Positions 8,632 through 39,817 of a stretch of DNA of 40,020 nucleotides are shown piece by piece. Under the pieces are notes generated by a model. The model searched no databases and had not been told where the DNA came from. It was given only the letters and a program-made list of their open reading frames with translations. Position 1 is the first letter of the stretch; every line of letters starts with the position of its first letter. This stretch comes from an uncultured Verrucomicrobiota bacterium (GTDB lineage Bacteria > Verrucomicrobiota > Verrucomicrobiia > Opitutales > Opitutaceae): contig CAJCBL010000051.1 in NCBI GenBank assembly GCA_903960515.1, positions 1-40,020 on the forward strand. Reading direction: 5' to 3'. A program made the position numbers and the translations under genes.

Positions 8632-9075
8632 ATGCTTCGCAACCCCGAGACCGATCGCGCGCGGCGCGCCGCCTTTACCCTGTTTGAAATCCTCATTGTG
8701 GTGGCGCTCATTGCGCTGCTCGCCGGCGTGGCGGTGATGAATGCCGACAAGATTTTCAGCCAGAACCAGGAGCAGATCGCCAAGATCTTCGTGAAACAGA
8801 GCCTCGATGTTCCGCTCACCAGCTACAAGATCGCGATGGGCGGGTATCCGACTACCGAGGAGGGATTGCAGGCCCTGATCACCTCTCCCGGCAGCGGTGG
8901 CGAGCGCTGGCGCGGCCCCTACATCAAGTCCGAGGGCGGGAAGACGCCGACCGATCCGTGGGGCACGCCGTATCAATACCGCTACCCGGGCACGCACAAC
9001 ACCGACCGCTTCGACGTGTGGTCGGCTGGGGCGGACCGCAAAGAAGGCACCGCCGACGACATCGGCAATTGGTGA
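8632..9075 (+). CDS. gspG: Type II secretion major pseudopilin GspG
   Basis: Major pseudopilin that polymerises into the periplasmic pseudopilus of the type II secretion system. It is 147 aa and has a class III prepilin leader ending '...RRAA' before 'FTLFEILIVVALIALLAGV'; Glu at +5 is present, but the residue before the cleavage site is Ala rather than the usual Gly. The C-terminal half carries the GspG signature: 'GGYPTTEEGLQAL', 'DPWGTPYQYRYPG', then a calcium-site region ending 'GTADDIGNW'. It is the first gene of an eleven-gene operon. The ATG follows a TCCTGCCTCC tract instead of a ribosome-binding site. A TTGACC at 8595-8600 could be a -35, but no good -10 is seen. Confidence 0.96.
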   Translation: MLRNPETDRARRAAFTLFEILIVVALIALLAGVAVMNADKIFSQNQEQIAKIFVKQSLDVPLTSYKIAMGGYPTTEEGLQALITSPGSGGERWRGPYIKSEGGKTPTDPWGTPYQYRYPGTHNTDRFDVWSAGADRKEGTADDIGNW

Positions 9076-9674
9076 GCGCCGGCCCACAGCGCGCCGCGTC
9101 GCCGGCCGTGGTTGACTACTGGACCTTCCGCAGCCCGCCGCAGCGGCGCCCCTACCTTCGCCGCAGAGCGTTCACCTTGTTCGAGGTGATCCTCGTCGTT
9201 GCGTTGATCGGTGTGGCCGCCACGATGTTTCTGGTGAGCGTGGAGTCGCTCGGCAAGTCGTCGCCAGCCGATGAATTCGAGGGGGCCTTCTGGCGGGCGA
9301 TGGGGACGGCGCGCGAGCAGGCGCTGACCTCGCGCCGCCCGGTGGCGCTGGCCTATGATCCGAAGGAGAAGTGTTTCCTGCTCGCCGGTGCTGGGGGCGC
9401 GCAGAAGGTGCCGCTGGCCGCCTCCGTAGCGGTGGCGGAGGACGACTGTGCGGCCACGTTTTCCGTGGAGCTGCCGTCGAACGATTTCGTACTTGTGCGC
9501 GGCGAGCTCGTCACCCGCCGTCCAGTGGAGGCGGTGCGGATTTTCCCCGACGGGTCGTGCCAGGCCTTTGCCATCGAGTTCCAACTCGGCAACTACAAGC
9601 ACCGCGTGCAGATCGACCCGTGGACGGGCGCCGAGATGCTCGCTGCCGAAGCCGACAAGAAGGGCCGGTCGTGA
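9072..9674 (+). CDS. gspH: GspH-like minor pseudopilin
   Basis: A 200-aa prepilin-like protein. The GTG at 9072 overlaps the gspG stop (GTGA); a later in-frame GTG near 9108 is possible. The prepilin motif is 'YLRRRA' before 'FTLFEVILVVALIGVAATM', again with Ala at -1 and Glu at +5. The following 'FWRAMGTAREQALTSRRPVALAYDP' fits the GspH pattern of an N-terminal helix followed by beta strands, and the end 'AVRIFPDGSCQAFAIEF' also fits GspH. GspH belongs to the pseudopilus and follows GspG in most type II operons, as here. The assignment to H rests on order and pattern. Confidence 0.85.
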   Translation: MSAGPQRAASPAVVDYWTFRSPPQRRPYLRRRAFTLFEVILVVALIGVAATMFLVSVESLGKSSPADEFEGAFWRAMGTAREQALTSRRPVALAYDPKEKCFLLAGAGGAQKVPLAASVAVAEDDCAATFSVELPSNDFVLVRGELVTRRPVEAVRIFPDGSCQAFAIEFQLGNYKHRVQIDPWTGAEMLAAEADKKGRS

Positions 9675-10258
9675 GCAAAGCGAACAAGGGGGTATGGCCA
9701 CAGATTGGGGGCGGATGGCGCGGGGCGTTCGGGCGCCGCGGTTTCACTCTGCTGGAGGTGCTGCTGGCCTTCGCCCTGTTTGCGGTGGCCGTGGTGGTGC
9801 TGGCGACCTCGTATCTCAACATTATCACTTCGCTGGAGGCGGTGAAGACCGACCGCGCCTTCGACCAGGAGGTGCGCTGGGTGCGCGAGCAGGTGCTGAG
9901 GGAGGCCGACCTCAAAGAGGTGGAGAAGGGCGGCGAGTTGCGCTCGCCCGATAATACTGTGGTGCGCTGGCAGGCCAGCGTGTTGCCGGCCGCCGTGCCC
10001 GATCTGTTCACCGTGGAGCTGCGACTGGAGTTGGTCGGCGACAAGAAGGGGCAGCAGGATACGCGCGAGCACACCGAGCGGCTCACCGTGCTGCGGCCCT
10101 CGTGGTCGGAACCGGTGGAGAGGGCCAAGATTTTCGAGGAGGCGAAGCAGCGCATCGAGGAGGATCGCCGCATGAGCGGGCTGAGCGCCGGCAGTGCGTC
10201 CAAGTCCGGCAAGGCCGGCAAGTCTGCCAAGGCGGAGAAGTCGGGGGGGCACAAATGA
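9671..10258 (+). CDS. gspI: GspI-like minor pseudopilin
   Basis: A 195-aa prepilin-like protein. The GTG at 9671 overlaps the previous stop (GTGA). The prepilin site is canonical, 'FGRRG' before 'FTLLEVLLAFALFAVAVVV', with Gly at -1. Its position between H and J and the 'LLEVLLAFALFAVA' helix are typical of GspI, which initiates the minor pseudopilin tip complex. Unusually, it has a long charged C-terminal tail. After the beta domain come an acidic/basic helix (about residues 150-170) and a Ser/Lys/Gly-rich end with repeated 'KSGKAGKSAKA'-type units, which are absent from enterobacterial GspI. Confidence 0.82.
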   Translation: MSKANKGVWPQIGGGWRGAFGRRGFTLLEVLLAFALFAVAVVVLATSYLNIITSLEAVKTDRAFDQEVRWVREQVLREADLKEVEKGGELRSPDNTVVRWQASVLPAAVPDLFTVELRLELVGDKKGQQDTREHTERLTVLRPSWSEPVERAKIFEEAKQRIEEDRRMSGLSAGSASKSGKAGKSAKAEKSGGHK

Positions 10259-11319
10259 ACATCGCAGGCGAATTTTCTTTCCTAGGCAGCTCGTGTGCTC
10301 GGCGAGCGCAGCAGGCGCCGGCCAATGCGCGCTTGGCCGCGGAGCGGGCTGTGCTGCGCCCCTGCCAGCGGGCGGGCGGTTTCACGCTGCTGGAGACGCT
10401 GCTGGCGGTCGCCTTGTCGGCGGCGCTGCTGATCGCGGTGAATTTTTTCGTGCTTTCGATGGGGGAATTGTGGGGACGCACCTCGGAGCCCCGGCTCTTC
10501 GACCGGCATGTGCGCGGGGTTACCCGTTTTCTTGAGGCGCTGGTGCAGCAGTCGGTGGCGACCGAGGCCAGCCCCGGCGCGACCACGCCCGGCGGCGGCA
10601 AGCCGCAGGCGAAACCCCAGGCCAGCGGCGGGAGCGCGCCGGGGCTGGGCCGGCTGGTGGCTTTGGTCTTTGGCGACGGTATCCGGAGGCCCACGCTAGT
10701 GGGCGCCTTGGCCGGGCCGCGCGCAGGATTCCTGCTGGCCTCGCTGGGCCCGCGGACCCCCACCGGCCCGCAGCCGTCGCGCGAGGGTGGGGTGGGGCGC
10801 ATTCCCGAGGGGGTGCGCAACACCGGCACCAACATGGCGGCCGGCGGGGCCACGGCAGCGGGCTCCGCGGCCCCGCCGGGAAGCCCCGACGCAACCGGGC
10901 CGCGGTTTCGGGTGGGCACCCCGGCCGGCTACGACGGCGCCCCGCCGATGCTCATTTTCGAGGTGGACGAGGCGCCGGGGCAGTGCGTGTGGCCGCTGAG
11001 GCCGCTGCCCCAGGTGGAGTGCGCCCTGCAGATCAACGCCGACGAGGGGCTGGTGCTGCTCTGGAAATCCAAGCTGGAGGAGGACTACGGCAAGGGGCGC
11101 CCTCGCAAGACCCAGCTCTCGCCCCTAGGCCAGTCGATGGCCTTCGAATACTACGACGCCGAGCGCAAGTCCTGGACACGCAGCGAGCAGCCGCAGCCCG
11201 ACGGCGAGGGCGGCTGGCTGGTGCCCCAGCGCCTGCATCTGATCTTTGCCTACGCTGGGATGAGCCGCGAGGTTTCCATCCTGCTGCCGGGAGCGCCGGG
11301 AGGGGCGCCGATGCGATGA
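10255..11319 (+). CDS. gspJ: GspJ-like minor pseudopilin
   Basis: 354 aa from an ATG that overlaps the gspI stop (ATGA). The prepilin leader is long (about 41 residues, basic) and ends '...CQRAGG' before 'FTLLETLLAVALSAALLIA'. The protein is much longer than classical GspJ (about 200 aa). A low-complexity Pro/Gly/Ala/Lys-rich insertion follows the N-terminal helix (about residues 100-125), with further Gly/Pro-rich segments to about residue 220. The C-terminal part (about 225-350) has beta-strand patterns such as 'PPMLIFEVDEAPGQ'. Operon position supports J; the sequence alone would only show a minor pseudopilin. Confidence 0.8.
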   Translation: MNIAGEFSFLGSSCARRAQQAPANARLAAERAVLRPCQRAGGFTLLETLLAVALSAALLIAVNFFVLSMGELWGRTSEPRLFDRHVRGVTRFLEALVQQSVATEASPGATTPGGGKPQAKPQASGGSAPGLGRLVALVFGDGIRRPTLVGALAGPRAGFLLASLGPRTPTGPQPSREGGVGRIPEGVRNTGTNMAAGGATAAGSAAPPGSPDATGPRFRVGTPAGYDGAPPMLIFEVDEAPGQCVWPLRPLPQVECALQINADEGLVLLWKSKLEEDYGKGRPRKTQLSPLGQSMAFEYYDAERKSWTRSEQPQPDGEGGWLVPQRLHLIFAYAGMSREVSILLPGAPGGAPMR

Positions 11320-12518
11320 GCCCGCGGTGTTCAAACAGGAGCCACGCTGCTGCGCCCGGCCGGAGCGGCGTGCGAGCGGGGGCCTTTCCGCGCCGCCGCC
11401 ATGCGGCTGTGGGGCGGCGGCCGGGCCGCGGCTCGGTGCTGCTGTTCGTGCTCGTGCTCATCGTCGTAACCGCCGCAGCGATCCTGAAGTTCAGCGAGCG
11501 GGCCATGGGGGAGATGGCCGGCGAGGGCTACTATGTGCAGCGCGACCGGCTGCGCGGCGAGGCCTACTCGGCGCTGGAGGCGAGCCTGGCTGTGCTTGCC
11601 CAATACAGGGAGATCGACGGCGGGCTGTATGCGCCCGCCCAGGGCTGGGGCGATCCGCTCGCCCAGGCCGGCTACGAGCCGCAGACCGCCGACCGCACGG
11701 TGACCGTGGAGTTCGTGGACGAGAACGCCAAGCTGGCATTGAGAACTGCCGACACCTCCGAGCCCGCCCTGGTGGCGCTCTTCACCGACCTTGGCTTCGA
11801 CCCCAACGAGGTATCCGTGCTCACCGACAGCCTCATCGACTGGATCGATGCCGACGACAACGCGCGCCCCTTCGGCGCGGAGAAGGACGACTATCTGCGC
11901 ACCGATCTGGCGCATGTGGCGGCCAACCATTGCCCGCGGTCTTTCGCAGAGCTGGCGGCGGTGCAGGGCTTCGCCGATCTGATGTTCACGGAGGCCGGCC
12001 TGCCCACGGCGCGCTGCGAGGAGTTCATGCGGCGAGTGAGCCTCTGGAGCGATGGCACCCTGAATCTTAATACCGCCTCCGACGACGTGCTGCGCGGCTG
12101 CGGAGTGCTGGGCGACAAGCAGATCGACGCGCTCAGCCTGGTGCTCGACACCCCTGGTGAGGTGCGAGGCTCGTTGGGGGGGCGCTATTTCCGCTCGTTG
12201 AGCGAGCTCTCGGCGAAGCTGGGCGCATTGCCCGAGGGAGGGAACCTGGGGGTGCGCACCACAGTGCTGGGCGTGGTGGTGACCGTGCGGGAGCGGCAGA
12301 CTGAGTTCCGGCTGCGGGGCGTAGTGCGCACCGACGAGACCGGCAAGCCGGCCCCCGTGAAAAGTGGTGCGGCCGGCGGCCGTTCCGTGCCCACGGCCTC
12401 CGGTTCGGGCAGCGGCAAGCCGGGGGCCGGCACCGAAATTGAATACCCTTTCAAGTTTCTTGAGCTTGTAGAGGACCCTCCGCCGTCTACGATCGCCATC
12501 TCGCAAGAGTCTCCCTGA
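11316..12518 (+). CDS. gspK: GspK-like minor pseudopilin
   Basis: 400 aa from an ATG overlapping the gspJ stop (ATGA). The basic leader ends 'RRPGRG' before 'SVLLFVLVLIVVTAAAILKF', and like other GspK proteins it lacks Glu at +5. The large extracytoplasmic region shows GspK features: 'LTDSLIDWIDADDNARPFGA', the 'LNLNTASDDVL' helix-hairpin-helix-like segment and a SAM-like helical domain between them. GspK caps the pseudopilus tip with I and J. The C-terminal tail is Gly/Ser/Pro-rich (about residues 345-375). The next gene begins five bases after the stop. Confidence 0.9.
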   Translation: MSPRCSNRSHAAAPGRSGVRAGAFPRRRHAAVGRRPGRGSVLLFVLVLIVVTAAAILKFSERAMGEMAGEGYYVQRDRLRGEAYSALEASLAVLAQYREIDGGLYAPAQGWGDPLAQAGYEPQTADRTVTVEFVDENAKLALRTADTSEPALVALFTDLGFDPNEVSVLTDSLIDWIDADDNARPFGAEKDDYLRTDLAHVAANHCPRSFAELAAVQGFADLMFTEAGLPTARCEEFMRRVSLWSDGTLNLNTASDDVLRGCGVLGDKQIDALSLVLDTPGEVRGSLGGRYFRSLSELSAKLGALPEGGNLGVRTTVLGVVVTVRERQTEFRLRGVVRTDETGKPAPVKSGAAGGRSVPTASGSGSGKPGAGTEIEYPFKFLELVEDPPPSTIAISQESP

Positions 12519-12523
12519 AACCC

Positions 12524-14299
12524 GTGGCGGACCAATCAACAACCCCAAAAATGGCCGGAGGGCATCGCCTTCCGGAGCTGCCTACGATCCTCATCGCCGG
12601 CCACCATTTCTTCACCGACACGGTGCCGCTGGTGCCCGGAACCGCTGCGCGCGAGATCCCGGCGCTGGCCGCCCTGGCGCTCGAGCAGGAGGCGCCGTTT
12701 GCCGAGGAGCAGATGGCCTGTGGATACTATGCGGCCCCCGCCGACGCAGGGCTGGTGGTGTTTGCTTCTTTGCGACGCAAGTTCGCCGCGGCTCAGGAGA
12801 GCTGGGGGAAGGCGGGTTTTGTGCTCCCCGATTTCGCCACCTGGTTGCCGCGCGGGGTAGCCCGGCCGTGCATCGTGGTGTTGGAGACGGCTGAGGCGGT
12901 CACCGCGCTCGAGTACGCCGCTGGCTCGGCTTTGCCGCGGCGCATCGTGAGCCGGCCTGTGCCGCCGGCCCCGGCCGCAGTTCCGGCTCCGGCCCCAGCA
13001 GAGGCTGTGGTTGCAGTTGCCGCACCGTCCGTAGTTCAGGGAGTGACCTCGGCAGAGGGAGCCGTTGCCGTCGAGGCAGCGCCGGCTCTTGAGGGAGCGG
13101 CGCCGGTCCAGGAAGCGCCTGTGGTTGCTGCCCCGGAGCAAGAGGTGGTTGAAGTGGGCGTACCGAGCGCAGCGGAGGCGGCGCCCGCTGCGGAGGGGGC
13201 GGCCCGCGTGGCATCGGTGGCTTTCGATGGAGTGGCCGTAGCGCGCGAGTTGGTGCTGGCGCGGATCGAGCGGGGAGGGCGGCCGCTGATGCGTTACCGT
13301 TTGGCGGATATCCCGTGCACGGTGAAGGGCTCCCGGTATTACTTTCATTGGGAGGCGCTGGCCGGCACCACTGCGAAGTCGGTGGAGGAGGGGGCCTTCG
13401 CCCCGGTGCAGTTGTGGACGATGGATCTGCGCGAGTCGGAGTCGTTGCGCACCAAGCGTCGCGATTTCCAGTGGAACCGGCTCGCGTGGGGCACACTGGT
13501 GGGGCTGGGCGCGGCCTCTGCGTTGCTGCTGCTGGCCGAGGTTGTGCTTCTGGGCGGCCAGCTGTGGCTGCACAGCAGGCAGGCGCGCATCGACCGTCAA
13601 GTGCCCTTGGCCCGGCAGGCGGAAACCAATCAGGATGTGGTGGAACGACTTTCCGGTTACATAGATCGCAAGCCCCAGCCGCTGGAGCAGTTGGCCTACG
13701 TCAACGACCTGCGGCCGCGCTCGATCTATTTCACCAAGGTCTCGGTGGAGGCTGGTACGCAGATGGTCATCGAGGGGGCCACTGCGGCCCTGGCCGAGGT
13801 CAACGAATTCGAGGCTGCGCTGACGCGCTCCGGCGGGTTTGCGTCGGTGGAAGTTAAGAACACCCGGAGCCGCGAGGGCGGTGGCACCTTCCAGCTCTCG
13901 CTGGCCTTCCGGCCTGGCGCGGGTAATCCGGCCTTTGCCCCCGACAATGCCGCCTTGGCCGTGCCCACGCCCACCCCCGCCACTCCGGCTCCCTCAGCCC
14001 CGGCTCCCATCGCCACGCCTCCGCCTCCCCGGCCCAAGGCTACCGGTGATGCGCCGATGGTCGCGCCCCGCCCTGTGCCCGGTGCCGCGCCCTCTGGCAT
14101 GGGACCGCAACCGGGCGAGCGCAGCCACTATGGGCCCGTCAACCAGGGCAGTGCCCCCCGCCCGGGCGAAGAGCCTTGGGTGAAGCGCTTCGGCCCCCGG
14201 GGCATGAATCATCCTTCGCCCCCGACTCCGGATACGGATGGGGCCAACAAGCAGGCTCCGTTGCCTGGCGACGCTCAGCCCGCCCCTTCCAAGCCATGA
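12524..14299 (+). CDS. gspL: GspL/PilN-like type II assembly protein
   Basis: 591 aa from a GTG at 12524 (an ATG at 12551 is the alternative). The N-terminal ~140 residues look like a degenerate cytoplasmic GspL/PilM-type domain. An Ala/Val/Glu-rich linker follows (about 150-230). There is a single membrane segment at about 320-345 ('LVGLGAASALLLLAEVVLLG'). A short coiled coil and a PilN-like periplasmic domain come next ('YVNDLRPRSIYFTKVSVEAG' ... 'EFEAALTRSGGFASVEVKN'). The last ~110 residues are Pro/Ala-rich. In the type II system L anchors the ATPase GspE and partners M. The unusual linkers make identification depend on the PilN-like part and the position between K and M. Confidence 0.72.
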   Translation: MADQSTTPKMAGGHRLPELPTILIAGHHFFTDTVPLVPGTAAREIPALAALALEQEAPFAEEQMACGYYAAPADAGLVVFASLRRKFAAAQESWGKAGFVLPDFATWLPRGVARPCIVVLETAEAVTALEYAAGSALPRRIVSRPVPPAPAAVPAPAPAEAVVAVAAPSVVQGVTSAEGAVAVEAAPALEGAAPVQEAPVVAAPEQEVVEVGVPSAAEAAPAAEGAARVASVAFDGVAVARELVLARIERGGRPLMRYRLADIPCTVKGSRYYFHWEALAGTTAKSVEEGAFAPVQLWTMDLRESESLRTKRRDFQWNRLAWGTLVGLGAASALLLLAEVVLLGGQLWLHSRQARIDRQVPLARQAETNQDVVERLSGYIDRKPQPLEQLAYVNDLRPRSIYFTKVSVEAGTQMVIEGATAALAEVNEFEAALTRSGGFASVEVKNTRSREGGGTFQLSLAFRPGAGNPAFAPDNAALAVPTPTPATPAPSAPAPIATPPPPRPKATGDAPMVAPRPVPGAAPSGMGPQPGERSHYGPVNQGSAPRPGEEPWVKRFGPRGMNHPSPPTPDTDGANKQAPLPGDAQPAPSKP

Positions 14300-14817
14300 G
14301 AACCTTCTTCTTCCGCCGCAGTTGGCGCGAGCGCGTGCTGCTGCTGGCAGTACTCATGGTGGGCGTAGTCATTTGGCTCTTCACCGTAATCGGGCAGAGC
14401 CGCAGTTGGCGCGAGCGCTGGAGCGGGCAGAAGGCCACGCTCGATTCGCAGGCGGTTTGGCTCAACAACGCCGCCCCCCTGGCCGAGCAGCTCCAGAGCC
14501 GCCTTGCACAGGTGCAACAGGGGCGCTCGCTCAACGCCACCCAGCTCGTCGGCCAGCTCGACGCGGTGGTCAAGCGCCAGCATTTCGCCTACCGGATCGA
14601 TCCCCCAACTACGGCCCAGAAGCCGCCGGTGATCATCCACAGCGTCTCCCTCTCCTTGGAGAAGGCCGAGCTGCCCGCCCTAGCGGCGTTTGTCGACGAC
14701 CTGTGCGCCTCCCTGCCGCTGGTGAACATCGAACAGTTCGTGATCACTCCCGACCGCCGCAACCCAGCCCAGCTCGACGTGCGCCTCAAGCTCACCGGCC
14801 TCGAACTGCTGCCCTGA
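14296..14817 (+). CDS. gspM: GspM-like type II assembly protein
   Basis: A 173-aa bitopic protein from an ATG overlapping the previous stop (ATGA). A short basic cytoplasmic start with 'RRSWRERVLLLAVLMVGVV' as membrane anchor is typical of GspM, in which an 'RERxLL' motif precedes the helix. A coiled-coil region (about 40-85) and a ferredoxin-like periplasmic domain ('VSLSLEKAELPALAAFVDDL' ... 'NIEQFVITPDRRNPAQLDV') follow. With the GspL-like protein it would form the inner-membrane platform. The gene is followed by 44 bp before gspD. Confidence 0.82.
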   Translation: MRTFFFRRSWRERVLLLAVLMVGVVIWLFTVIGQSRSWRERWSGQKATLDSQAVWLNNAAPLAEQLQSRLAQVQQGRSLNATQLVGQLDAVVKRQHFAYRIDPPTTAQKPPVIIHSVSLSLEKAELPALAAFVDDLCASLPLVNIEQFVITPDRRNPAQLDVRLKLTGLELLP

Positions 14818-14861
14818 GATTTCCCCCGCAACCCCGACTGTCTGCGCCTCCTTTGCCCTCC

Positions 14862-17105
14862 ATGAAACCCTGTCGCTTTCCGACCCTACGCCTCACAGCC
14901 GGGGTGTTCGCCGCCCTCGCGTTGGCCGGGCTCGCGGTCCCGTTGGCCGCCCAGGAACCGGTCCCAGCGCCGCCGGCCGAGAGTGCGGCGCCAGCACTCC
15001 CGCAGACCCCGGGGGCGCCCACCGCCCTGGTGGCTATCCCTCCCGCAGGCGACGGCGCGGGCATGATCGACAACATCAAGCTCAGCGACAATCCGCTGGC
15101 CACCGTACTCGACATGCTTGAGCAGCTCACGGGCCGCTCGGTGATCCGGCCCCAGCAACTGCCCACGCCCACGTTCACCTTCAACAGCCACGGCCCCATC
15201 TCCAAGCGCGACGCCATCGTGGCCATCGAGTCGCTGCTGAGCCTCAACAACATCGCCGCCGCCCCTATGGGCGAGAAGTTCATCAAGGTGGTGGTCATCA
15301 CCAACATCCGCACCGAGGCCCCCGAGCTGGTAATGGGTTCGCTGCGAGACCAGCCCCCCAGTGGCAAGATCGTGAGCAAGCTCTTCCGCCTCTCGCATCT
15401 GGATACCACCTCCTTCCAGAACCAGGTGCAACCCTTCCTCAGCCCCGGCTTCGGCTCGGTGGTGCCGTTCCAGAACTCCAACACCCTGCTGGTCACCGAC
15501 ACCATCTCCAACCTCCAGCGCCTGGAGTATGTGCTGGCCGAGGTGGACAAGCCGCGCGACCTCGTCACCAAATTCTACACCCTCAAGTATGCTCAGGCTC
15601 AGGCGGTCTCGGAGAAGATCAAGAGCCTCATCGAGACCACCCGCACCGCCTTCAACCGCCAGAATGGCGGCAATCAGCCCGGCGGCATGCCGATGCCCCC
15701 GGGCATGCCCACGCCGCAGACCGGCGACGGCTCCGGCGACAATGCTGCGGCCGGTCTTGGCGCCGCGCTCATCTCGGCCACCACCAGCCTCAACTTCGAC
15801 GAGCGCACCAACCAGGTGATCCTCGTCACCGACAGCTCGAGCGTGCATTTCTACGACAACCTCATCGACAAGCTCGATGTGCAGGCCGATCCCTCGACCA
15901 AGATCGACGTGGTTCAGATTCAGCACGCACAGGCGACCGAGATCGCCTCGTTGCTGAGCACCTTTGTGTCGGGCTCGACCGGTTCGGCCTCGCGCAGTTC
16001 GTCGTCTGGCTCCGGGCGCAGCAGCACCACCCGCAAGCAGCGGAGCAGCGAGACCTTTCCCGGGCTCGGGCGCACCACACCCACCAATCCCACTACGCCG
16101 TCCACCCCATCCTTGCCGGGCGGCGGCACGGGCGAGCGCAACTCCCGTTTCAGTGAATTCATGACGATCCTGGCCGACGAGCGCAGCAATGCCATCGTCG
16201 TCTCCGGCACTCAGGACGACCTCAAGCTCGTGCGCGAACTCGTCAAACAGATCGACGTAGTGCTGCCCCAGGTGCAGATCGATGTGCTCATCGCCAGCGT
16301 CAACCTGGACAATACGGTCAAGCGTGGCATCGACGCGTTCACCGGCATCACCGTAGAGGGCAATAAAGTGACGGGAATCATGGGCTCTGCAGATGGCAAA
16401 ACTCCAGGCATCACAGGACCCGGGTTTGATATTTCCAAGATCCTGTTTGCGGGCAAACAGGGCTTCACTGCGAACGTCACGATGCCCAACACCAACTCGA
16501 ATGTCCGCATTTTGTCGACACCTAGCATCACCACCACGAGTAACCAGGAGGCCACTATTACCGTGGCCACGGCTATCCCGATTATTACTTCCGCATACAG
16601 CGATGTAACCGCCGGTACCGTTGGTGCGCGCAACAGCTACAGCTACCAGAATGTCGGCTTGGAACTGACGGTGAAGCCCCTCATCGGACTCGACGGTACC
16701 ATTCAGATGGAGATCGAGCAGAGCGCCGACGATTTCGTCAACGGAGTGCCTAAGGCTGCGGACACGCAGCCGGCGATATCCAAGCGCACTGCCAAGTCCT
16801 TTGTGAGTGTGCAAGACGGGGAAATCATCGTGCTGGCGGGCATGCAGAAGGATTCGAAGAACAAGGCGCGCAGCACCATGCCGCTCCTCGGAGAAATCCC
16901 GTTTCTCGGCGTCCTTTTCGGCAGCAACTCCCGTTCGGTGTCGAGGGAAGAGGTTATTTTCTTCATACAACCGCGTATCTTGCGCACTACTGCCGACGCC
17001 AATCGCCTCGCCCGACAGGAGGCGAAGGATTCCTTGGTCGCCCCGCTGATGGAGAAACGCCTCAAGCAGACATTCGTGCTGCCGGCCGAGCCGCTCGCGA
17101 AGTAA
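14862..17105 (+). CDS. gspD: Type II secretion secretin GspD
   Basis: Outer-membrane secretin channel, 747 aa. A Sec signal peptide is visible (about residues 1-27, 'LALAGLAVPLAAQ'). An N0 domain follows ('IKLSDNPLATVLDMLEQLTG'). Repeated N1-N3 domains come next, with the Gly/Pro/Met-rich loop and a Ser/Arg/Thr-rich loop (about 375-420) that are common in secretins. The C-terminal pore domain begins near 'ILADERSNAIVVSGTQDDL' and ends with the 'PLLGEIPFLGVLFGS' and 'EEVIFFIQPRIL' signatures. No pilotin-binding S-domain is obvious. Codon use changes along the gene: the first two thirds are almost entirely G/C-ending, while from about 16340 many codons end in A or T. A CT-rich tract precedes the ATG. 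Confidence 0.96.
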   Translation: MKPCRFPTLRLTAGVFAALALAGLAVPLAAQEPVPAPPAESAAPALPQTPGAPTALVAIPPAGDGAGMIDNIKLSDNPLATVLDMLEQLTGRSVIRPQQLPTPTFTFNSHGPISKRDAIVAIESLLSLNNIAAAPMGEKFIKVVVITNIRTEAPELVMGSLRDQPPSGKIVSKLFRLSHLDTTSFQNQVQPFLSPGFGSVVPFQNSNTLLVTDTISNLQRLEYVLAEVDKPRDLVTKFYTLKYAQAQAVSEKIKSLIETTRTAFNRQNGGNQPGGMPMPPGMPTPQTGDGSGDNAAAGLGAALISATTSLNFDERTNQVILVTDSSSVHFYDNLIDKLDVQADPSTKIDVVQIQHAQATEIASLLSTFVSGSTGSASRSSSSGSGRSSTTRKQRSSETFPGLGRTTPTNPTTPSTPSLPGGGTGERNSRFSEFMTILADERSNAIVVSGTQDDLKLVRELVKQIDVVLPQVQIDVLIASVNLDNTVKRGIDAFTGITVEGNKVTGIMGSADGKTPGITGPGFDISKILFAGKQGFTANVTMPNTNSNVRILSTPSITTTSNQEATITVATAIPIITSAYSDVTAGTVGARNSYSYQNVGLELTVKPLIGLDGTIQMEIEQSADDFVNGVPKAADTQPAISKRTAKSFVSVQDGEIIVLAGMQKDSKNKARSTMPLLGEIPFLGVLFGSNSRSVSREEVIFFIQPRILRTTADANRLARQEAKDSLVAPLMEKRLKQTFVLPAEPLAK

Positions 17106-17112
17106 TTTCCCC

Positions 17113-17652
17113 GTGCCACGCCGCCCCACCAGTTCAGTGCTTTGCGCCGCAGCGTTGCTCGCCGCCGCCGTCCCGGCCTGGGCCGTGCCCGAGTCGCTGC
17201 TGCGCAACTCGCCGTTTATGCCCGCCGGCAGCGCCGCCCCCACCCAGCCCACCCAGCCCGGCAGGCTCGAGCTGCGCGGCATCATGGCGATCGGAGGCAC
17301 TCCGAAGTTCACGATTTTTGATACCAGCAACAATCGCGCGATCTGGCTGGCCGTAGGAGAGTCCGACGGCGGTATCCGCGTGAGCGCTTTCGACCCTGCC
17401 ACCGAGGCCGTGACCGTCGAGCTCGATGGCCAGTCGCAGCGCCTCACCATGAAGGAGGCTCAGATCGTAAACGTGGCTGTGGCGATGCCTACGCCCACCG
17501 CCAATGTCATGCCCAGCCCGCCCGCCGGTGCCAACCCCGCCCCGGCCGGCAACGAGCAGGAGATCCAGGAGCGCCGCAATCGTATCGTGGAGGAGTTGCG
17601 CCGCCGCCGCGCCCTGCGCCAAGCCCCCCAGCCGCAGCCAGCAACCCGCTAA
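17113..17652 (+). CDS. Exported GspC/PilP-like protein
   Basis: 179 aa starting at a GTG seven bases after the gspD stop. A signal peptide or N-terminal anchor is likely ('SSVLCAAALLAAAVPAWA'). The central 'LELRGIMAIGGTPKFTIFD' and 'NRAIWLAVGESDGGIRVSAF' segments resemble the small beta-barrel HR domain of GspC/PilP, which contacts the secretin. The C-terminus has a Pro/Ala linker and an Arg/Glu-rich helix ('EIQERRNRIVEELRRRR'). The operon otherwise lacks a GspC, so this protein probably takes its place as the periplasmic link between secretin and inner membrane. The TAATG junction couples it to gspE. The assignment is by pattern and context. Confidence 0.65.
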   Translation: MPRRPTSSVLCAAALLAAAVPAWAVPESLLRNSPFMPAGSAAPTQPTQPGRLELRGIMAIGGTPKFTIFDTSNNRAIWLAVGESDGGIRVSAFDPATEAVTVELDGQSQRLTMKEAQIVNVAVAMPTPTANVMPSPPAGANPAPAGNEQEIQERRNRIVEELRRRRALRQAPQPQPATR

Positions 17653-19328
17653 TGAGCCACCCTTCTCCGCTCGTACTTCCCGTGTTGGCCTCGCTCGGAG
17701 CCGAGGCCCGCGACCGTGTGGCCGAGGCCTCGCGTGCCGAACGCATCGGGCAGCTCGCCCATGCGTTGCGCCAGCCCCCGGACCAGGTGCTGGCCACCGT
17801 CGCCGAACAGTCGGGACTGGCCGTGGTTGCCCCCGAGCAGTTCAGCCTGCCTCTGCTCCAGCAGATGCCGGTGCGGCTGGTTCATGAATACTGCTGCGTG
17901 CCTGTGGCCACCGAGCGCCCCGACCAGCTCTGCCTGGCCACCGCCTGGCCACCCGAGGGCCGTATGGACGACTGGGTGTTCGCCGCCTGCGACCGCGACC
18001 CGGTGTGGGTGTTGGCCGCCCCCGACAAGATCGCCAAATATCTCAACGACCACCTAGGCGTTGGCTCGGATAGCCTCGATAGCGACACCACTGTGGCCGA
18101 GACCGTGGCCGAGGAGGAGGAGGACGAGGACGCCGCCGTAATCCGCTTTGTAAACAAGGTCGTCTCCCAGGCGGTGACCGACGGCGCAACCGACATCCAT
18201 TTCGAGCCGCAGGAGGAGACGCTGCGCATCCGCTACCGTGTAGACGGTCTGCTGGTCCCCGTTCCCGTGCCCGAGAACCTGCGACGCTTCCAGGACGCCA
18301 TCACCTCGCGCCTCAAGATCATGGCGAAGCTCAACATCTCCGAGCGCCGCCTGCCCCAGGATGGCCGCATCGGATACCGTGTGGGCGACACCCTGCTGGA
18401 TATCCGCCTTTCCACCATCCCCACCATGTACGGGGAGAGCGTGAGCCTGCGCCTGCTCAACAAGAAGAACAACGCGCTCACCCTCGACCAGCTCGGCATG
18501 AGTGCCGAGGACCAGTCCAAGATCGACGCCGTGCTGGGCCTGCCCCACGGCATCATCCTGGTCACCGGTCCCACCGGCTCGGGCAAGAGCACCTCGCTCA
18601 ACGCGTTCATCCGGCGGATCAACTCCACCGACAAGCGCATCATCACCATCGAGGACCCCATCGAGTACGAGGTGCCCGGCGCCAACCAGATGCAGGTGCG
18701 TCCGGAGATCGGGCTCGGGTTTGCCGAGGGGCTGCGCCACATCCTGCGCCAGGACCCCAACGTGATCATGGTGGGTGAAATCCGAGATCGGGATACGGCC
18801 GACATCGCCATCCGCGCCTCACTCACCGGCCATCTGGTTTTCTCCACGATCCACACCAACGACGCCCCCGGCGCGCTCACCCGCCTGACGGACATGGGCA
18901 TCGAGCCCTTCCTCATCGCCTCTGGTGTGGAGTTGGTGATAGCCCAGCGTCTGGTGCGGCGGCTCTGCCCGCATTGCTCCAGTCCGCGGCCGATCCAGCA
19001 TCACCAGTTGCTCGATCAGCTGGGCGTGCTGGGTCTGCCGGCGGAACTCGCCGAAGGGGTGCATGCTCTGCCGGCCGCTGTGGGCTGCGAGTCGTGCCGC
19101 GGACTCGGATACCGTGGCCGCGTGGGCGTGTTTGAGATTCTCCGCGTCGACGAACGCCTCCACGACCTGATCGTGAAGCGCGAGTCGGCGCGTCAGATGC
19201 GCAAGGTGGCCGTCGACGGCGGGATGGCATCCTTGGAGATGGCCGGCTGGAAACAGGTCCGCGCCGGCTTGACGACATTGGAGGAGATTGTGCGCGTGCT
19301 CTCGATGGCGGAGGGCAAGGGGACATGA
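17652..19328 (+). CDS. gspE: Type II secretion ATPase GspE
   Basis: Cytoplasmic hexameric ATPase that powers pseudopilus assembly, 558 aa. An N-terminal MshEN-like domain (about 1-130) and an acidic linker with an EEEEDEDE run (about 150-160) come first. The middle domain contains 'TDIHFEPQEETLRIRYRVDG'. The P-loop 'GPTGSGKST' is at about 306-314, the Asp box at 'IITIEDPIEYEVPG', Walker B at 'NVIMVGEIRDRDTADIA', and the His box at 'FSTIHTNDAPGALTRL'. A zinc-binding tetracysteine motif, 'LCPHC' ... 'CESCRGLGYRGR', is typical of GspE/PilB. The ATG shares its A with the preceding TAA. The ATPase partner GspF is encoded 170 bp downstream. Confidence 0.97.
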   Translation: MSHPSPLVLPVLASLGAEARDRVAEASRAERIGQLAHALRQPPDQVLATVAEQSGLAVVAPEQFSLPLLQQMPVRLVHEYCCVPVATERPDQLCLATAWPPEGRMDDWVFAACDRDPVWVLAAPDKIAKYLNDHLGVGSDSLDSDTTVAETVAEEEEDEDAAVIRFVNKVVSQAVTDGATDIHFEPQEETLRIRYRVDGLLVPVPVPENLRRFQDAITSRLKIMAKLNISERRLPQDGRIGYRVGDTLLDIRLSTIPTMYGESVSLRLLNKKNNALTLDQLGMSAEDQSKIDAVLGLPHGIILVTGPTGSGKSTSLNAFIRRINSTDKRIITIEDPIEYEVPGANQMQVRPEIGLGFAEGLRHILRQDPNVIMVGEIRDRDTADIAIRASLTGHLVFSTIHTNDAPGALTRLTDMGIEPFLIASGVELVIAQRLVRRLCPHCSSPRPIQHHQLLDQLGVLGLPAELAEGVHALPAAVGCESCRGLGYRGRVGVFEILRVDERLHDLIVKRESARQMRKVAVDGGMASLEMAGWKQVRAGLTTLEEIVRVLSMAEGKGT

Positions 19329-19382
19329 TCGGTGCCGGTTTTCTTGGCGCTGAGCGCGCCAGTTTTGCGGTGCGGCGTGCCG

Positions 19383-19469
19383 CTAGTAGGTCCGGTCTCC
19401 GACCGGATCGCCGGGCGTCGAGTTGCATGTATGCAGCGGTCAAGGCCGGTCGGAGACCGGCCCTACTAG
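19383..19469. repeat. Nested palindromic repeat between gspE and gspF
   Basis: Two 24-nt arms, at 19383-19406 and 19446-19469, are inverted copies differing by a base or two. Each arm itself contains the palindrome ccggtc-tcc-gaccgg, so the unit can fold as one large or two small hairpins. It sits in the only sizeable gap of the secretion operon and may act as a transcript-stability or attenuation element, or be a copy of a dispersed genomic repeat. Confidence 0.8.
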
Positions 19470-19498
19470 CAGTCGTGATGAGGGGAATCTGATACGCC

Positions 19499-20755
19499 AT
19501 GCCGATTTTCCACTACGTTGCTCGTGATGCGCAGGGTGCCGAAAGCCGAGGCAAGCTTGAGGCGGCCACGCGCAAGCAGGCCTTGGCCCAGCTCCGATCC
19601 CGGCAGTTGACGCCCTCGCGGCTTGATGAGGGTGCCGCCGGCGCTGCTGCTGCCGCCGCTGAGTCGGCGGGCTCGATCTCGCTGGGGAGCTTTGGCGGGT
19701 CCGGAGCGAAGAAGCGATTCGGGCGCGAACACGCTCTGCCGTTCCTGCGGGCGTTGATGGGGTTGGTGACCGCCGGCATCCAGGTGGCCGACGGTGTGAA
19801 ATTGCTGGGCAAGCGACTGAGCGACCCGGCGCTGCGCGCTCTGTCGGCGGCGCTCTGGGACCAGTTGAGCCAGGGGCGCTCGCTTTCGCAGGCGATGACG
19901 GCGCAGGGAGCGGTTTTCGACGACGCCACGGTCAATCTCGTGCAGGCCGGCGAGGCCACGGGGCGGCTGGGCGGTGTGCTGGAGCGGCTGGTACTGGATT
20001 TGGAGGAGCGCGCGGAGATCCGTTCGCGGTTGATCGGAGCGATGGCGTACCCGGCGGTGATCTTGGGAATGGCCGTGATCGTCATCTTGATCTTTCTGTT
20101 TTTCCTGCTGCCGCGCATCGAGACGCTGCTGGCCTCGCTGCAAGGCAACCTGCCGCTGGCCACGAGGTTGCTCATCGGTTTCGCCAACTTTCTGGTCGGC
20201 TACGGCTGGTTTTTCGCGCTGGTGGGGGCGGTGGGAGTGTCCATTTTCTGGGCATGGCGGCGCAAGCCCGAGGGGCGGTTGGCCAGCGACGGCTGGCTGC
20301 TGAAGGTGACGGGAGTGGGGACCTTCGTCATCTCCAACGACATTTTGCGGCTCACTCAGGCCTTCAGTCTGCTGCTGGAGAACGGCATCACCACGCTGCC
20401 GGCACTGGCGATGACGGAGCGCACGATCCAAAACCGGGTGTTCCGGGCGGCGTTCGCGGAGGCGCGCGGCAAGATTGCCGAGGGGGCGGGCATCTCCACC
20501 GCGCTGGGTGGTACGGGGTTTTTCCCTCCGCTGGTGATCGATGTGATTTCCGTAGGCGAGAGCACCGGCAACATTGTGCCCAGCCTCAAGGAGGTGGCGC
20601 GCGACTACCGCAAGCGCATCGCCAATCAGGCAGGCGTATTTGTGAATGTGATCTCGGTGGGCGCACTGTTGGTGGCCGCCGGGTTTGTGGCGCTGGTGGC
20701 CTTTGGCATCATCTCCGCGGTGTTCCAGATCAGTGCGAGCCTGAAGGCCGGGTGA
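19499..20755 (+). CDS. gspF: Type II secretion inner-membrane protein GspF
   Basis: Polytopic platform protein, 418 aa. The N-terminal 'PIFHYVARDAQGAESRGKLEA' is the classic GspF start. Two homologous GspF domains follow: the first has 'LPFLRALMGLVTAGIQVADGV' and 'LVQAGEATGRLGGVLERL', and the second has 'QAFSLLLENGITTLPALAM' and 'VISVGESTGNIVPSLKEVA'. Membrane helices lie at about 180-200 ('AVILGMAVIVILIFLFFLLP'), 235-255 and 385-410. It couples GspE to pseudopilus growth. It ends the operon; a ccggcg/cgccgg hairpin 58 bp after the stop lacks a T-run. Confidence 0.97.
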   Translation: MPIFHYVARDAQGAESRGKLEAATRKQALAQLRSRQLTPSRLDEGAAGAAAAAAESAGSISLGSFGGSGAKKRFGREHALPFLRALMGLVTAGIQVADGVKLLGKRLSDPALRALSAALWDQLSQGRSLSQAMTAQGAVFDDATVNLVQAGEATGRLGGVLERLVLDLEERAEIRSRLIGAMAYPAVILGMAVIVILIFLFFLLPRIETLLASLQGNLPLATRLLIGFANFLVGYGWFFALVGAVGVSIFWAWRRKPEGRLASDGWLLKVTGVGTFVISNDILRLTQAFSLLLENGITTLPALAMTERTIQNRVFRAAFAEARGKIAEGAGISTALGGTGFFPPLVIDVISVGESTGNIVPSLKEVARDYRKRIANQAGVFVNVISVGALLVAAGFVALVAFGIISAVFQISASLKAG

Positions 20756-36944: not shown

Positions 36945-37014
36945 CGGTGGCATGCGCGCAGCTCCGATGCGTAATTCCCCATCCCCTTTTCCGCGAAACG
37001 GAACCCCTGTAGCC

Positions 37015-37743
37015 ATGATCTGGAAGGCCGCGGGAGGTGCCGCCTTGGCGCTGTGCCTGCTCTCCGGCTGCCAGGACGCCCCCAAGGTGACCATCGACTG
37101 GCTGGGCGGGCCGTTCTTCGCCCCGACCAATTTTGTGGGGCTCACCGAGTTGCCTCCCGAGATCCGCCGGGTGGCGGTGCTGCCCATTTCCGGGCTGGAG
37201 GGGCTGCCCCCCGAAAGCACCGGGGCGCTGGAGGAGGCGGCTCGTATCGCCTTGTTGGGTGCCGGGCGTTTCGAGGTGGTCCCGGTCGAGCCGGCAATGG
37301 TGCGCTCTATCGTGGGCAAGCCGGCGGTGAGCTCGGTGGAGGTGCTGCCCACCGCCCTTTTCGATCGCATCGTGCGCGACCAGGCTGCCGACGCCGTGCT
37401 GCTCATCGATGTCACGCTCTTCCGGCCGTACACGCCCATGGCCTTGGGGGTGCGAGTCAAGCTGGCCAGTTGCTCCGGCACTCGCCCCATCCTGTGGGCG
37501 TTCGATACCGTATTCGACGTGCGCAACCCCGCGGTGGCCAACTCCGCCAGGCGTTATGCCGCCGGCGGGCATCCCGGCCTGGTCGACCCCGGCCCCTCGG
37601 CCATGCAGAGCCCAAGCCGCTTCGCGGCGTATGTGTTTACCGACACTTTTGCCGTCCTGCCCCAGCGGCCACCCCCGGTCCCGGCCCTGCCCGCGGATTC
37701 CTCCAATGTACCCGCTAAAGTTTCACGCCCTCGGGCCGATTGA
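37015..37743 (+). CDS. Lipoprotein, CsgG/FlgO-like
   Basis: 242 aa from the ATG at 37015. The lipobox 'LALCLLSGC' (Cys at about residue 20) predicts a lipoprotein. The body reads 'RRVAVLPISGLEGLPPESTG', then 'ARIALLGAGRFEVVPVEPAM', 'RIVRDQAADAVLLIDVTLFR' and 'ILWAFDTVFDVRNPAVANSA'. This is the alternating strand-helix pattern of CsgG, FlgO and LpoB-type outer-membrane lipoproteins, with the typical 'AVLPF/ISG' strand. FlgO-like proteins assist flagellar stability, which would fit the sigma-28-like promoters upstream of and within the gene's 3' end. The function is inferred only. The gene is followed 36 bp later by the FlgM-like gene. Confidence 0.8.
   Translation: MIWKAAGGAALALCLLSGCQDAPKVTIDWLGGPFFAPTNFVGLTELPPEIRRVAVLPISGLEGLPPESTGALEEAARIALLGAGRFEVVPVEPAMVRSIVGKPAVSSVEVLPTALFDRIVRDQAADAVLLIDVTLFRPYTPMALGVRVKLASCSGTRPILWAFDTVFDVRNPAVANSARRYAAGGHPGLVDPGPSAMQSPSRFAAYVFTDTFAVLPQRPPPVPALPADSSNVPAKVSRPRAD
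37716..37742 (+). promoter_or_regulatory. Sigma-28 (FliA-type) promoter of the FlgM-like gene
   Basis: TAAAGTTT-N11-GCCGATTG, lying in the last codons of the lipoprotein gene. The -35 is a perfect match to the flagellar sigma-28 consensus, the spacer is exact, and the -10 matches six of eight positions. Transcription would start about 30 bases before the ATG at 37780. Confidence 0.75.
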
Positions 37744-37779
37744 ACAAAACGTCACTTTCCGCGAACGCCCATTATCGCC

Positions 37780-38079
37780 ATGATCAATTCCACCAACCGC
37801 ACTGGTTCGACTCCCCACATCGGCGGGATTCCCGTCCCGGTGTCGCGCCCAGCCCCTCGTGCTCCAGAGGTCACCGATCGTTTCAGCACCGAATCGCTTA
37901 GTCGCCTGCGCCAGGCTCTTGAGAGCCAGCCGGCTGTGCGCCCCGACATTGTCGAGCTGGGACGCTCCCTCGCTTCCGATCCCGGCTATCCGCAGGCTCC
38001 TATCGTGCGCAAGCTCGCCGCATTGCTGGTCAACCAGCCCGACGACGCCGATGGCGGCGGCGAAACCGATACAGACTGA
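37780..38079 (+). CDS. Small FlgM-like protein (putative anti-sigma-28)
   Basis: 99 aa. A disordered Pro/Thr/Arg-rich N-terminus is followed by a helical core: 'ESLSRLRQALESQPAVRPDI', then 'VELGRSLASDPGYPQAPIVR', then 'KLAALLVNQ', and an acidic tail. The pattern 'V..L+..L...P.Y....I..KLA..L' fits the sigma-28-binding C-terminal helices of FlgM, where 'V..lK.aI..G.Y......IA..Ll' is usual. FlgM is typically small, poorly conserved and transcribed from a sigma-28 promoter, which is present directly upstream. A strong terminator follows. Both size and context fit, but the sequence match is loose. Confidence 0.6.
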   Translation: MINSTNRTGSTPHIGGIPVPVSRPAPRAPEVTDRFSTESLSRLRQALESQPAVRPDIVELGRSLASDPGYPQAPIVRKLAALLVNQPDDADGGGETDTD

Positions 38080-38095
38080 GCCGCTTTTGTTTGCG

Positions 38096-38126
38096 CCGCC
38101 GCTCCCCTCAAGGGGCGGCGGTTTTT
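38096..38126 (+). terminator. Intrinsic terminator after the FlgM-like gene
   Basis: The stem pairs cccc with gggg and ccgccg with cggcgg across a two-base bulge, with a tcaa loop, followed by five T residues. It begins 17 bases after the stop codon. Confidence 0.88.
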
Positions 38127-38344
38127 GTGCGCCCGGGCGAATTCGGTTTGTGGGCGTGTCGCGCCCGTGGACACCGCACGTAGGCAAGGCCCGGCTCTAC
38201 CCCCAGTCCTCCTGGTCGCGGCTGCAGGCAGGCGCGGCCTGCCCGGTGCCCGTTCCATTTTTGCCCGTCGCGCTGGCCCATTTCGCCGGGGCTGCGCTAC
38301 TTGTTTTGACTTTGCCAAAGGCGCCACCCTAGCTTCCCGAAGCG

Positions 38345-39817
38345 ATGTCGCTGGAAAAGATTCTCATCATCGATGACGAGCCGATCGTCTGCAAAGCGCT
38401 TCGCGAAATCCTGCCCAAGAAACGGTTTACCGTCTCCACGGCCGGGATGATCGCCGAAGCAGAGGCCACGCTGGCCCGAGAGAAATTCGACCTGATTTTC
38501 TGCGACGTCCGCCTGCCCGATGGCAGCGGCCAGGATTTTCTCGAGCGCATGATGACCAGCCCCGAGCCGCCTCTGGTTGTCATGATGACTGGGTACGGCT
38601 CGATCGAGTCGGCGGTCATGTGCATGCGCGCCGGAGCCTTCGACTACCTCATCAAACCCTTCACTCCCGACATCATCGAGGTGATCGTGAAGAAGGCCGA
38701 GTCGTTCGGCCAGTTGGTGAAGGTCAACCGCATCCTCAGCGAGAGCGGCGACGAGGGCGATCTGCTGGGTGACAGCCCCGTGATGCGCCGCCTGCGACAG
38801 CTCATCCTCAAGGTCGCCCCCACCGACGCCACCGTGCTGCTCACCGGCGAGAGCGGCACGGGCAAGGAGATGGTCGCCCGCGAGCTCTACCGCAACAGTC
38901 CGCGCAAGAGCGCCCCCTTCATCAAGGTCAACTGCGCCGCCGTGAGCGAGAACCTCATGGAGAGCGAGTTTTTCGGACACGAGCGCGGGGCCTTCACAGG
39001 GGCCACCGAGCGCCGCGAGGGCCGCTTCGAACTGGCCAACGGCGGCACCCTGCTGCTCGACGAGATCAGCGAGATCCCCCTGCACCTGCAGGCGAAACTG
39101 CTGCGAGTGCTCCAGGAAAAGGAGTTCGAGCGGGTGGGGGGCAACAAGACGATGAAGTCCAACGTCCGCATCCTCGCCACCTCCAACCGCGACCTGCTCC
39201 ACTCTGTGCAGGACGGCAAGTTCCGCCAGGATCTCTACTACCGGCTCAACGTATTCCCCATCCACGTGCCGCCGCTGCGCGAGCGTACCGGCGATGTGGT
39301 GATGCTTGCGGATGCCTTCCTCAAGCGCTACTCGCGCAAGCACGGGCTGAAGTCCGCCGGCTGGTCCGAGGCCGCAGTGGCTTCGATTCGTGACTACAGT
39401 TGGCCTGGCAACGTGCGCGAGCTCCAGAACACCGTCGAGCGCGCGGTGATCCTGGCCGAGCCCGGCCGCCCGATCCCGCCCAGCCTGCTGAGCCTGCCCG
39501 AGATGGCCCCCAGCACCAACGCCTCCGACAAACCCATGGCCGCCCCGGCGCCCGCCGAGCCTGCCGGCGCCCCTGTTGCCGCTGCGCCGGCGCCGGCCGC
39601 CCCTGCTCCGGCAGCGCCGGCCGCTGCGGAGAGTTTCCTTTCACTCGAGGATCTCGAGCAGCAGCACATCCTGGATGCGCTGCGCAAGACCAACGGCAAT
39701 CGCACCCAGGCCGCCACCATCCTCAAGATCAGCATCCGCACCCTGCGCAACAAGTTGAACCTCTACCGAGAGCAGGGCGTCGCCGTGGCCCTCATCGGCC
39801 AGGACGAGGCAGAGTAG
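38345..39817 (+). CDS. Sigma-54-dependent response regulator (NtrC family)
   Basis: 490 aa with three domains. The receiver has the acceptor Asp54 in '[14 protein letters not shown]', the conserved Lys in 'FDYLIKPF', and acidic residues at 10-11. The AAA+ domain (about 140-375) has Walker A 'GESGTGKE' at 168-175, the sigma-54-contacting 'GAFTGA' at 215-220, and '[20 protein letters not shown]' as Walker B. After an Ala/Pro linker comes a Fis-type helix-turn-helix ('[20 protein letters not shown]'). It activates sigma-54 promoters. Its targets may include flagellar genes (FlgR/FlrC-like), given the neighbouring kinase and FlgM-like gene, or glnA, whose sigma-54 promoter lies 8 kb away. A weak TTGACT/TAGCTT pair lies just upstream. 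Confidence 0.96.

Follow-up and report, generated by a model that had tools for sequence, protein, structure and literature searches.

Within the 40,020-nucleotide stretch of DNA analysed here (the window), the open reading frame at 37780-38079 on the forward strand is very probably the gene for a diverged FlgM, an anti-sigma factor acting on FliA (sigma-28), and would itself be under the control of sigma-28. The design is already known, but the protein has drifted beyond recognition by the standard family models. The assignment draws on the co-presence of FliA, the matches of homologues to FlgM models, the flagellar neighbourhood in relatives, the predicted layout of the protein and the conservation of its promoter. 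Among the matches listed from open-licence PMC for FlgM, flagella and RNA motifs in Verrucomicrobia, Opitutaceae, Opitutus and Planctomycetes there was no description of this FlgM, nor of the leader element that precedes it in relatives, which is no proof of absence.

The 99-residue protein and its genetic context

The bacterium carries FliA (226 bits, over the cut-off) and two flagellin-family proteins, and a profile search of its 5.5-Mb genome with the FlgM family PF04316 gave no match. FlgM is therefore either missing or hidden. The 99-amino acid product of 37780-38079 has no match in Pfam, NCBIfam or PHROGs, and thus lies below the curated cut-offs of PF04316 and TIGR03824, which are detection thresholds rather than biological features.

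An AlphaFold model of the protein (mean pLDDT 71, pTM 0.31) has low confidence for residues 1-30 (pLDDT 51-59), rising to 73-89 for residues 31-80, with helices predicted at residues 37-48, 55-65 and 73-85. A low-confidence N-terminus followed by three helices is the layout expected of free FlgM, in which the N-terminus is disordered and the C-terminal, sigma-binding half is helical; here too the N-terminus is probably disordered, low confidence being no more than a sign of it. The model agrees with the helical pattern on which the gene was compared with flgM in the preliminary description. Foldseek and VIA-align found no fold relative of the model, as expected for a chain that is mostly extended. 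A profile search of solved structures gave four weak matches with no FlgM among them, and such a search cannot decide the matter because E. coli FlgM itself matches no PDB chain at E values up to 1.

The reading frame is followed by an intrinsic terminator at 38095-38122 on the same strand, comprising a stem of 11 pairs, nine of them G-C, and then TTTTG. It is the longest of three terminator-like sites on the two strands of 37000-38500, where 1.3 would be expected, and the 54-nucleotide stretch 38077-38130 folds with z = -2.2. Both the 99-residue protein and its own terminator had been proposed from the outset and both are confirmed; the terminator suggests a single-gene unit.

The gene is preceded by a putative lipoprotein of 242 amino acids (37015-37743, forward strand), named from its N-terminus and without a significant Pfam or NCBIfam family. 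It is 35-60% identical by blastp to reading frames in six flgM-bearing loci of relatives (L011, L012, L069, L070, L071 and L073), two of them from congeners of this bacterium. Downstream lies a sigma-54-type response regulator of the NtrC/FlbD/FlgR type (38345-39817, forward strand) that falls below each NCBIfam equivalog cut-off shown. It is 60-63% identical to a regulator near flgM in L067, L069, L072 and L073, and in the relatives these homologues lie no more than 3.5 kb from flgM. Recognised genes of a flagellar cluster are absent from the flanks in the window, and FliA is encoded on another contig of the genome (C9).

A late flagellar neighbourhood is found in the relatives, of which nine contexts (L067-L075) were compared; the window itself shares only the lipoprotein and regulator genes with them. 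The gene fliD, identified by Pfam, lies upstream of flgM in five of the nine (L068, L070, L071, L072 and L073), and in three of these (L070, L071 and L073) a lipoprotein gene stands directly between the two. In L067 the end of fliA lies 0.9 kb ahead of flgM, with a sigma-54 response regulator downstream. This arrangement differs from that of E. coli, where flgM lies between flgA and flgN; in the relatives it is often found near fliD, the lipoprotein gene and the sigma-54 regulator, and the window copy, unlike that of E. coli, adjoins no recognised flagellar structural gene.

Two further regions of the window can be described by eye. The products encoded across 8632-20755 resemble those of a type II secretion cluster (pseudopilins, a secretin, an ATPase and an inner-membrane protein), and at the contig end 39890-40020 resembles the beginning of a forward-strand transposase gene. 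The lipoprotein of 37015-37743, found near flgM in relatives and following fliD in three of them, is perhaps a flagellar accessory protein.

A family probably related to FlgM that occurs with FliA

Since the single protein is unmatched by curated models, we used its family of homologues instead. Homologues occur in 132 of 252 Opitutaceae genomes and in 39 of the 49 genera, at 134 places (two genomes have two each). The consensus of 113 members, aligned from 114 representatives with L158 left out, ends ...PEIRPEVVARGxxLAADPxYPSxxI...AxxIxxSPDLSE. When this alignment was used to search a sample of the phylum, the family was found in 29 of 387 genomes, seven of them outside Opitutaceae.

Scanned singly, 25 of the 113 members match Pfam FlgM (PF04316; best E 1e-4) and 17 match NCBIfam FlgM (TIGR03824; best E 2.1e-5). 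The next NCBIfam family is matched by four members, and the 14 other Pfam families by one member each, the best being Chorion_3 (E 1.6e-4). In the converse search, PF04316 gave 116 weak places over the 252 Opitutaceae genomes, and 26 of these, including the best, fall on homologues; the homologues account for a very small fraction of the sequence covered. That best match (genome G156) spans codons 39-73 of the homologue, within the C-terminal half, and in FlgM it is the C-terminal half that binds sigma-28. A FlgM above the PF04316 cut-off was found in none of the 252 genomes and in only one of the 387 of the phylum sample. The earlier suggestion of a highly diverged member of the FlgM family is thus supported by matches that fall mainly on the two curated models of FlgM.

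We considered whether the gene might encode another small late-flagellar protein, one with the neighbourhood and promoter of FlgM but without its action on FliA; export substrates and export chaperones (FlgN, FliS or FliT type) would be examples. Some aspects of the neighbourhood would agree with this. In L074 fliS directly follows the flgM-like gene, and in L067 and L068 two small reading frames beside flgM have an appearance that we take by eye to be that of FlgN, though they have no Pfam match. In addition, one family member weakly matches FliT (E 0.13). Against that single match stand the 25 members that match PF04316 and the 17 that match TIGR03824, and the 252 genomes have no other FlgM over the PF04316 cut-off, though 138 of them have FliA. 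We therefore regard a chaperone or export substrate as improbable, and prefer the assignment as FlgM.

Comparison with single FlgM sequences gave scores within the range of shuffles. A profile of the family (A1) gave 3.8 bits to E. coli FlgM and 9.1 bits to the FlgM of L184, which is over the Pfam cut-off and belongs to a different family within the same class, and the best of 4000 shuffles reached 13.1 bits. A larger family profile gave 3.7 and 7.5 bits respectively, with a best shuffle of 12.4 bits. Neither profile scored E. coli FlgM above the shuffles, and the L184 protein too fell below several of the 4000. Homology consequently rests on the family and not on a single pairwise match. The non-significant comparison with E. 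coli FlgM would be in keeping with an unrelated anti-sigma factor that has converged on the same role, but the weak matches to FlgM models concentrate on the family far beyond chance, and that of G156 lies in the half with which known FlgM binds sigma-28; convergence is accordingly very unlikely. A sigma-28-like box, TAAACTTT-N12-GCCGAAGT, also stands a short way ahead of the start of the FlgM gene of L184 (genome G324, around 1351-1705).

In a number of respects the protein resembles the FlgM of Salmonella and E. coli (PF04316, TIGR03824). It is of similar size (99 amino acids compared with 97 in E. coli), has a predicted low-confidence N-terminus and C-terminal helices, is preceded by a sigma-28-type promoter, occurs together with FliA and has a weak profile match at the level of the family. 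It differs in that single-sequence similarity between E. coli FlgM and the Opitutaceae family is not significant.

The family occurs largely where FliA does. FliA, called with TIGR02479 at E values of at most 1e-50, was found in 138 of the 252 genomes. Both genes are present in 124 genomes and neither in 106, with eight having only the flgM-like gene and 14 only FliA (Fisher p = 1.4e-44, relatedness not being corrected for). Some of the FliA-only cases are assembly gaps, as in G209 and G246, where a contig end shows the leader of flgM and the opening codons of the flgM-like gene. For 31 hand-picked pairs of flgM and fliA on the same contig the separation is 1.7 kb in one, 24-68 kb in 19 and at least 124 kb in 11. 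With FliA in 138 genomes and not one of the 252 having a FlgM over the PF04316 cut-off, the family would supply the missing checkpoint. Annotation could then name FlgM in about half of the Opitutaceae genomes (132 of 252).

The sigma-28-type promoter and proposed autoregulation

The gene is preceded by a sigma-28-type promoter at 37716-37742 on the forward strand, reading TAAAGTTT-CACGCCCTCGG-GCCGATTG. Its -35-like element TAAAGTTT occupies 37716-37723 and its -10-like element GCCGATTG occupies 37735-37742, with a spacer of 11 nucleotides between them. The preliminary description had placed a near-perfect sigma-28 promoter, TAAAGTTT-N11-GCCGATTG, in the end of the preceding gene and shortly before the start codon of the 99-residue reading frame, and it was right in place and content. 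The -10 box shares bases with the stop codon of the preceding reading frame (37741-37743), and the box ends 37 nucleotides before the ATG at 37780. The transcript probably starts at about 37748-37750, within a short leader region (37743-37779) that does not contain the leader element conserved in other genera.

A search of the window with TAAAGTTT-N11-GCCGATWW, allowing up to three mismatches, returned one match, the promoter box itself with a single mismatch. The same search of 100 shuffles gave a mean of 0.05 matches, with a match in five of the 100. A looser pattern (TAAA-N15-GNCGATW) was not clearly enriched genome-wide, with 11 matches compared with seven for the reversed control, so that the motif by itself is weak proof and the real support comes from its conservation ahead of homologues. 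For this we used 131 homologue records, obtained from 149 matches in the fetched loci after dropping two without a start codon and merging duplicates; they cover the fetched loci rather than all of the 134 homologue places. The pattern TAAA-N-CGAT at sigma-28 spacing is present within 250 nucleotides upstream of 82 of the 131, as against 53 of 2609 background windows from the same loci, and upstream regions with their single bases shuffled gave a mean of 0.92 of 131 and at most four (100 shuffles). A sigma-28-type promoter of the form TAAA-N15-GCCGAT is thus conserved ahead of homologues at constant spacing.

The strict pattern is missing in 49 of the 131. By eye, many of the homologues that lack it and carry the leader element have the -10 box with a weaker -35 element (TCAAG or TTAAG, for example). 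Three congeners retain the box although the preceding reading frame ends at different points in it, its stop codon lying 0, 10 or 25 nucleotides in, and this retention despite a shifting stop codon speaks for selection on the promoter. That the box is a chance match, with the gene read from upstream, would agree with the modest genome-wide excess of 11 over seven but hardly with the pattern being present ahead of 82 of the 131 homologues when background windows have it in 53 of 2609 cases and the shuffles in no more than four, and can be given very little credence.

Transcription of the flgM-like gene by FliA-RNA polymerase from 37716-37742 is what the motif implies, and the conservation of the promoter supports the autoregulation by its own sigma factor that had been proposed for the gene. 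Similar boxes are found elsewhere in the genome. On contig C203, flbT (L077:7866-8312, reverse strand) and a flagellin-family gene (L077:8920-9753, reverse strand) each lie behind a sigma-28-type box; that of flbT has the same spacing and fits the pattern, and that of the flagellin gene has two changed bases. The genome would therefore have at least three candidate FliA targets.

The following scheme can be proposed, largely by analogy with known systems. FliA-RNA polymerase would transcribe the flgM-like gene from its promoter. The N-terminus of the protein would stay unfolded, and the three C-terminal helices of the model may bind FliA. So bound, FliA would be unable to switch on the late flagellar genes before completion of the hook-basal body, on which FlgM would be exported and FliA freed. 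Transcription of flgM by its own target would close a negative feedback loop and provide an assembly checkpoint. In Salmonella, according to PMC5809477, FlgM is exported after completion of the hook-basal body and flgM has an autoregulated class 3 promoter used by FliA together with a class 2 promoter (Gillen and Hughes 1993, as cited there). The gene in the window would be alike in being an anti-sigma gene transcribed by its own sigma factor. It differs from the Salmonella gene with respect to the class 2 promoter, since a sigma-70-type scan of 37000-38500 gave no second promoter.

A bipartite leader element in relatives

In 85 of the 131 homologues, none of them in the window's genus, a bipartite element ACGGCGTTCCC-N8..21-NGGCWGACCGT lies between the promoter and the flgM ATG, with both arms almost invariant. 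Among these 85 carriers a single gene appears under two records (L023/L109) and another, L155, has arms that have decayed, and for L092 the search pattern retained only the 5' part. Examples are found at L029:1788-1830 (reverse strand), L018:1436-1480 (forward strand) and L072:7000-7045 (forward strand), and an alignment (A3) contains 73 further distinct leaders. A model of the leader (R1) matches 94 places in 89 of the 252 genomes and 24 of the 49 genera, about once per genome. Eighty-nine of the 94 places precede flgM, 86 of them within 250 nucleotides upstream on the same strand and three at contig ends, ahead of the first flgM codons. The other five, with E values from 0.0018 to 0.01, are among the weakest matches. 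Taken by itself the 5' arm is non-specific, with 2-10 copies per genome in 15 genomes. The element is missing from the window and from its two congeners, and R1 gave no match in the window at E values up to 1.

Several possible identities of the element were examined. No Rfam family reached its gathering score in 12 loci, eight of which have the element, and none was found in one leader up to an E value of 10. A stable RNA hairpin was not supported: over 84 leaders the mean folding z relative to shuffles was -0.03, and RNAalifold gave only six pairs with almost no covariation, both sides of one pair being altered in a single sequence. Antisense pairing with flagellin mRNA was considered too and rejected. 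The 5' arm has an exact complement in one flagellin gene of G173, which was judged to be chance, because it lies at a coding position where other flagellins carry degenerate forms; the comparison comprised 17 rows including two repeats, with a further G173 match near 523385 lying outside it.

The distances vary, being 14-26 nucleotides from CGAT to the element, 13-29 from the element to the ATG and 8-21 between the arms, which speaks against a fixed DNA operator. A DNA site is thus less likely than an mRNA element. We suggest, at about even odds, that the leader is a cis-acting mRNA element not described before, which a protein or small RNA would bind and which would couple FlgM synthesis to flagellar assembly, and that it has been lost in the window's genus. 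If the leader does act on the mRNA, it would add a new point at which flagellar timing is controlled. Precedents for control of flgM mRNA that are relevant here are provided by the small RNAs OmrA and OmrB, which act post-transcriptionally on flgM by pairing with the early coding sequence (PMC7549644), and by FlgN, which promotes FlgM translation (PMC8036289). Compared with the OmrA/B site, the element of the relatives differs in being upstream of the start codon, and the window is without the element.

A further observation concerns the flagellin leaders of the relatives. In the last 60 nucleotides before the start in L068, L069, L070, L072, L073, L074 and L075, many seem by eye to form a small hairpin whose loop contains or adjoins ACGGA, with AAGGA before the start and with differing stem sequences. 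By eye this resembles a CsrA-type site.
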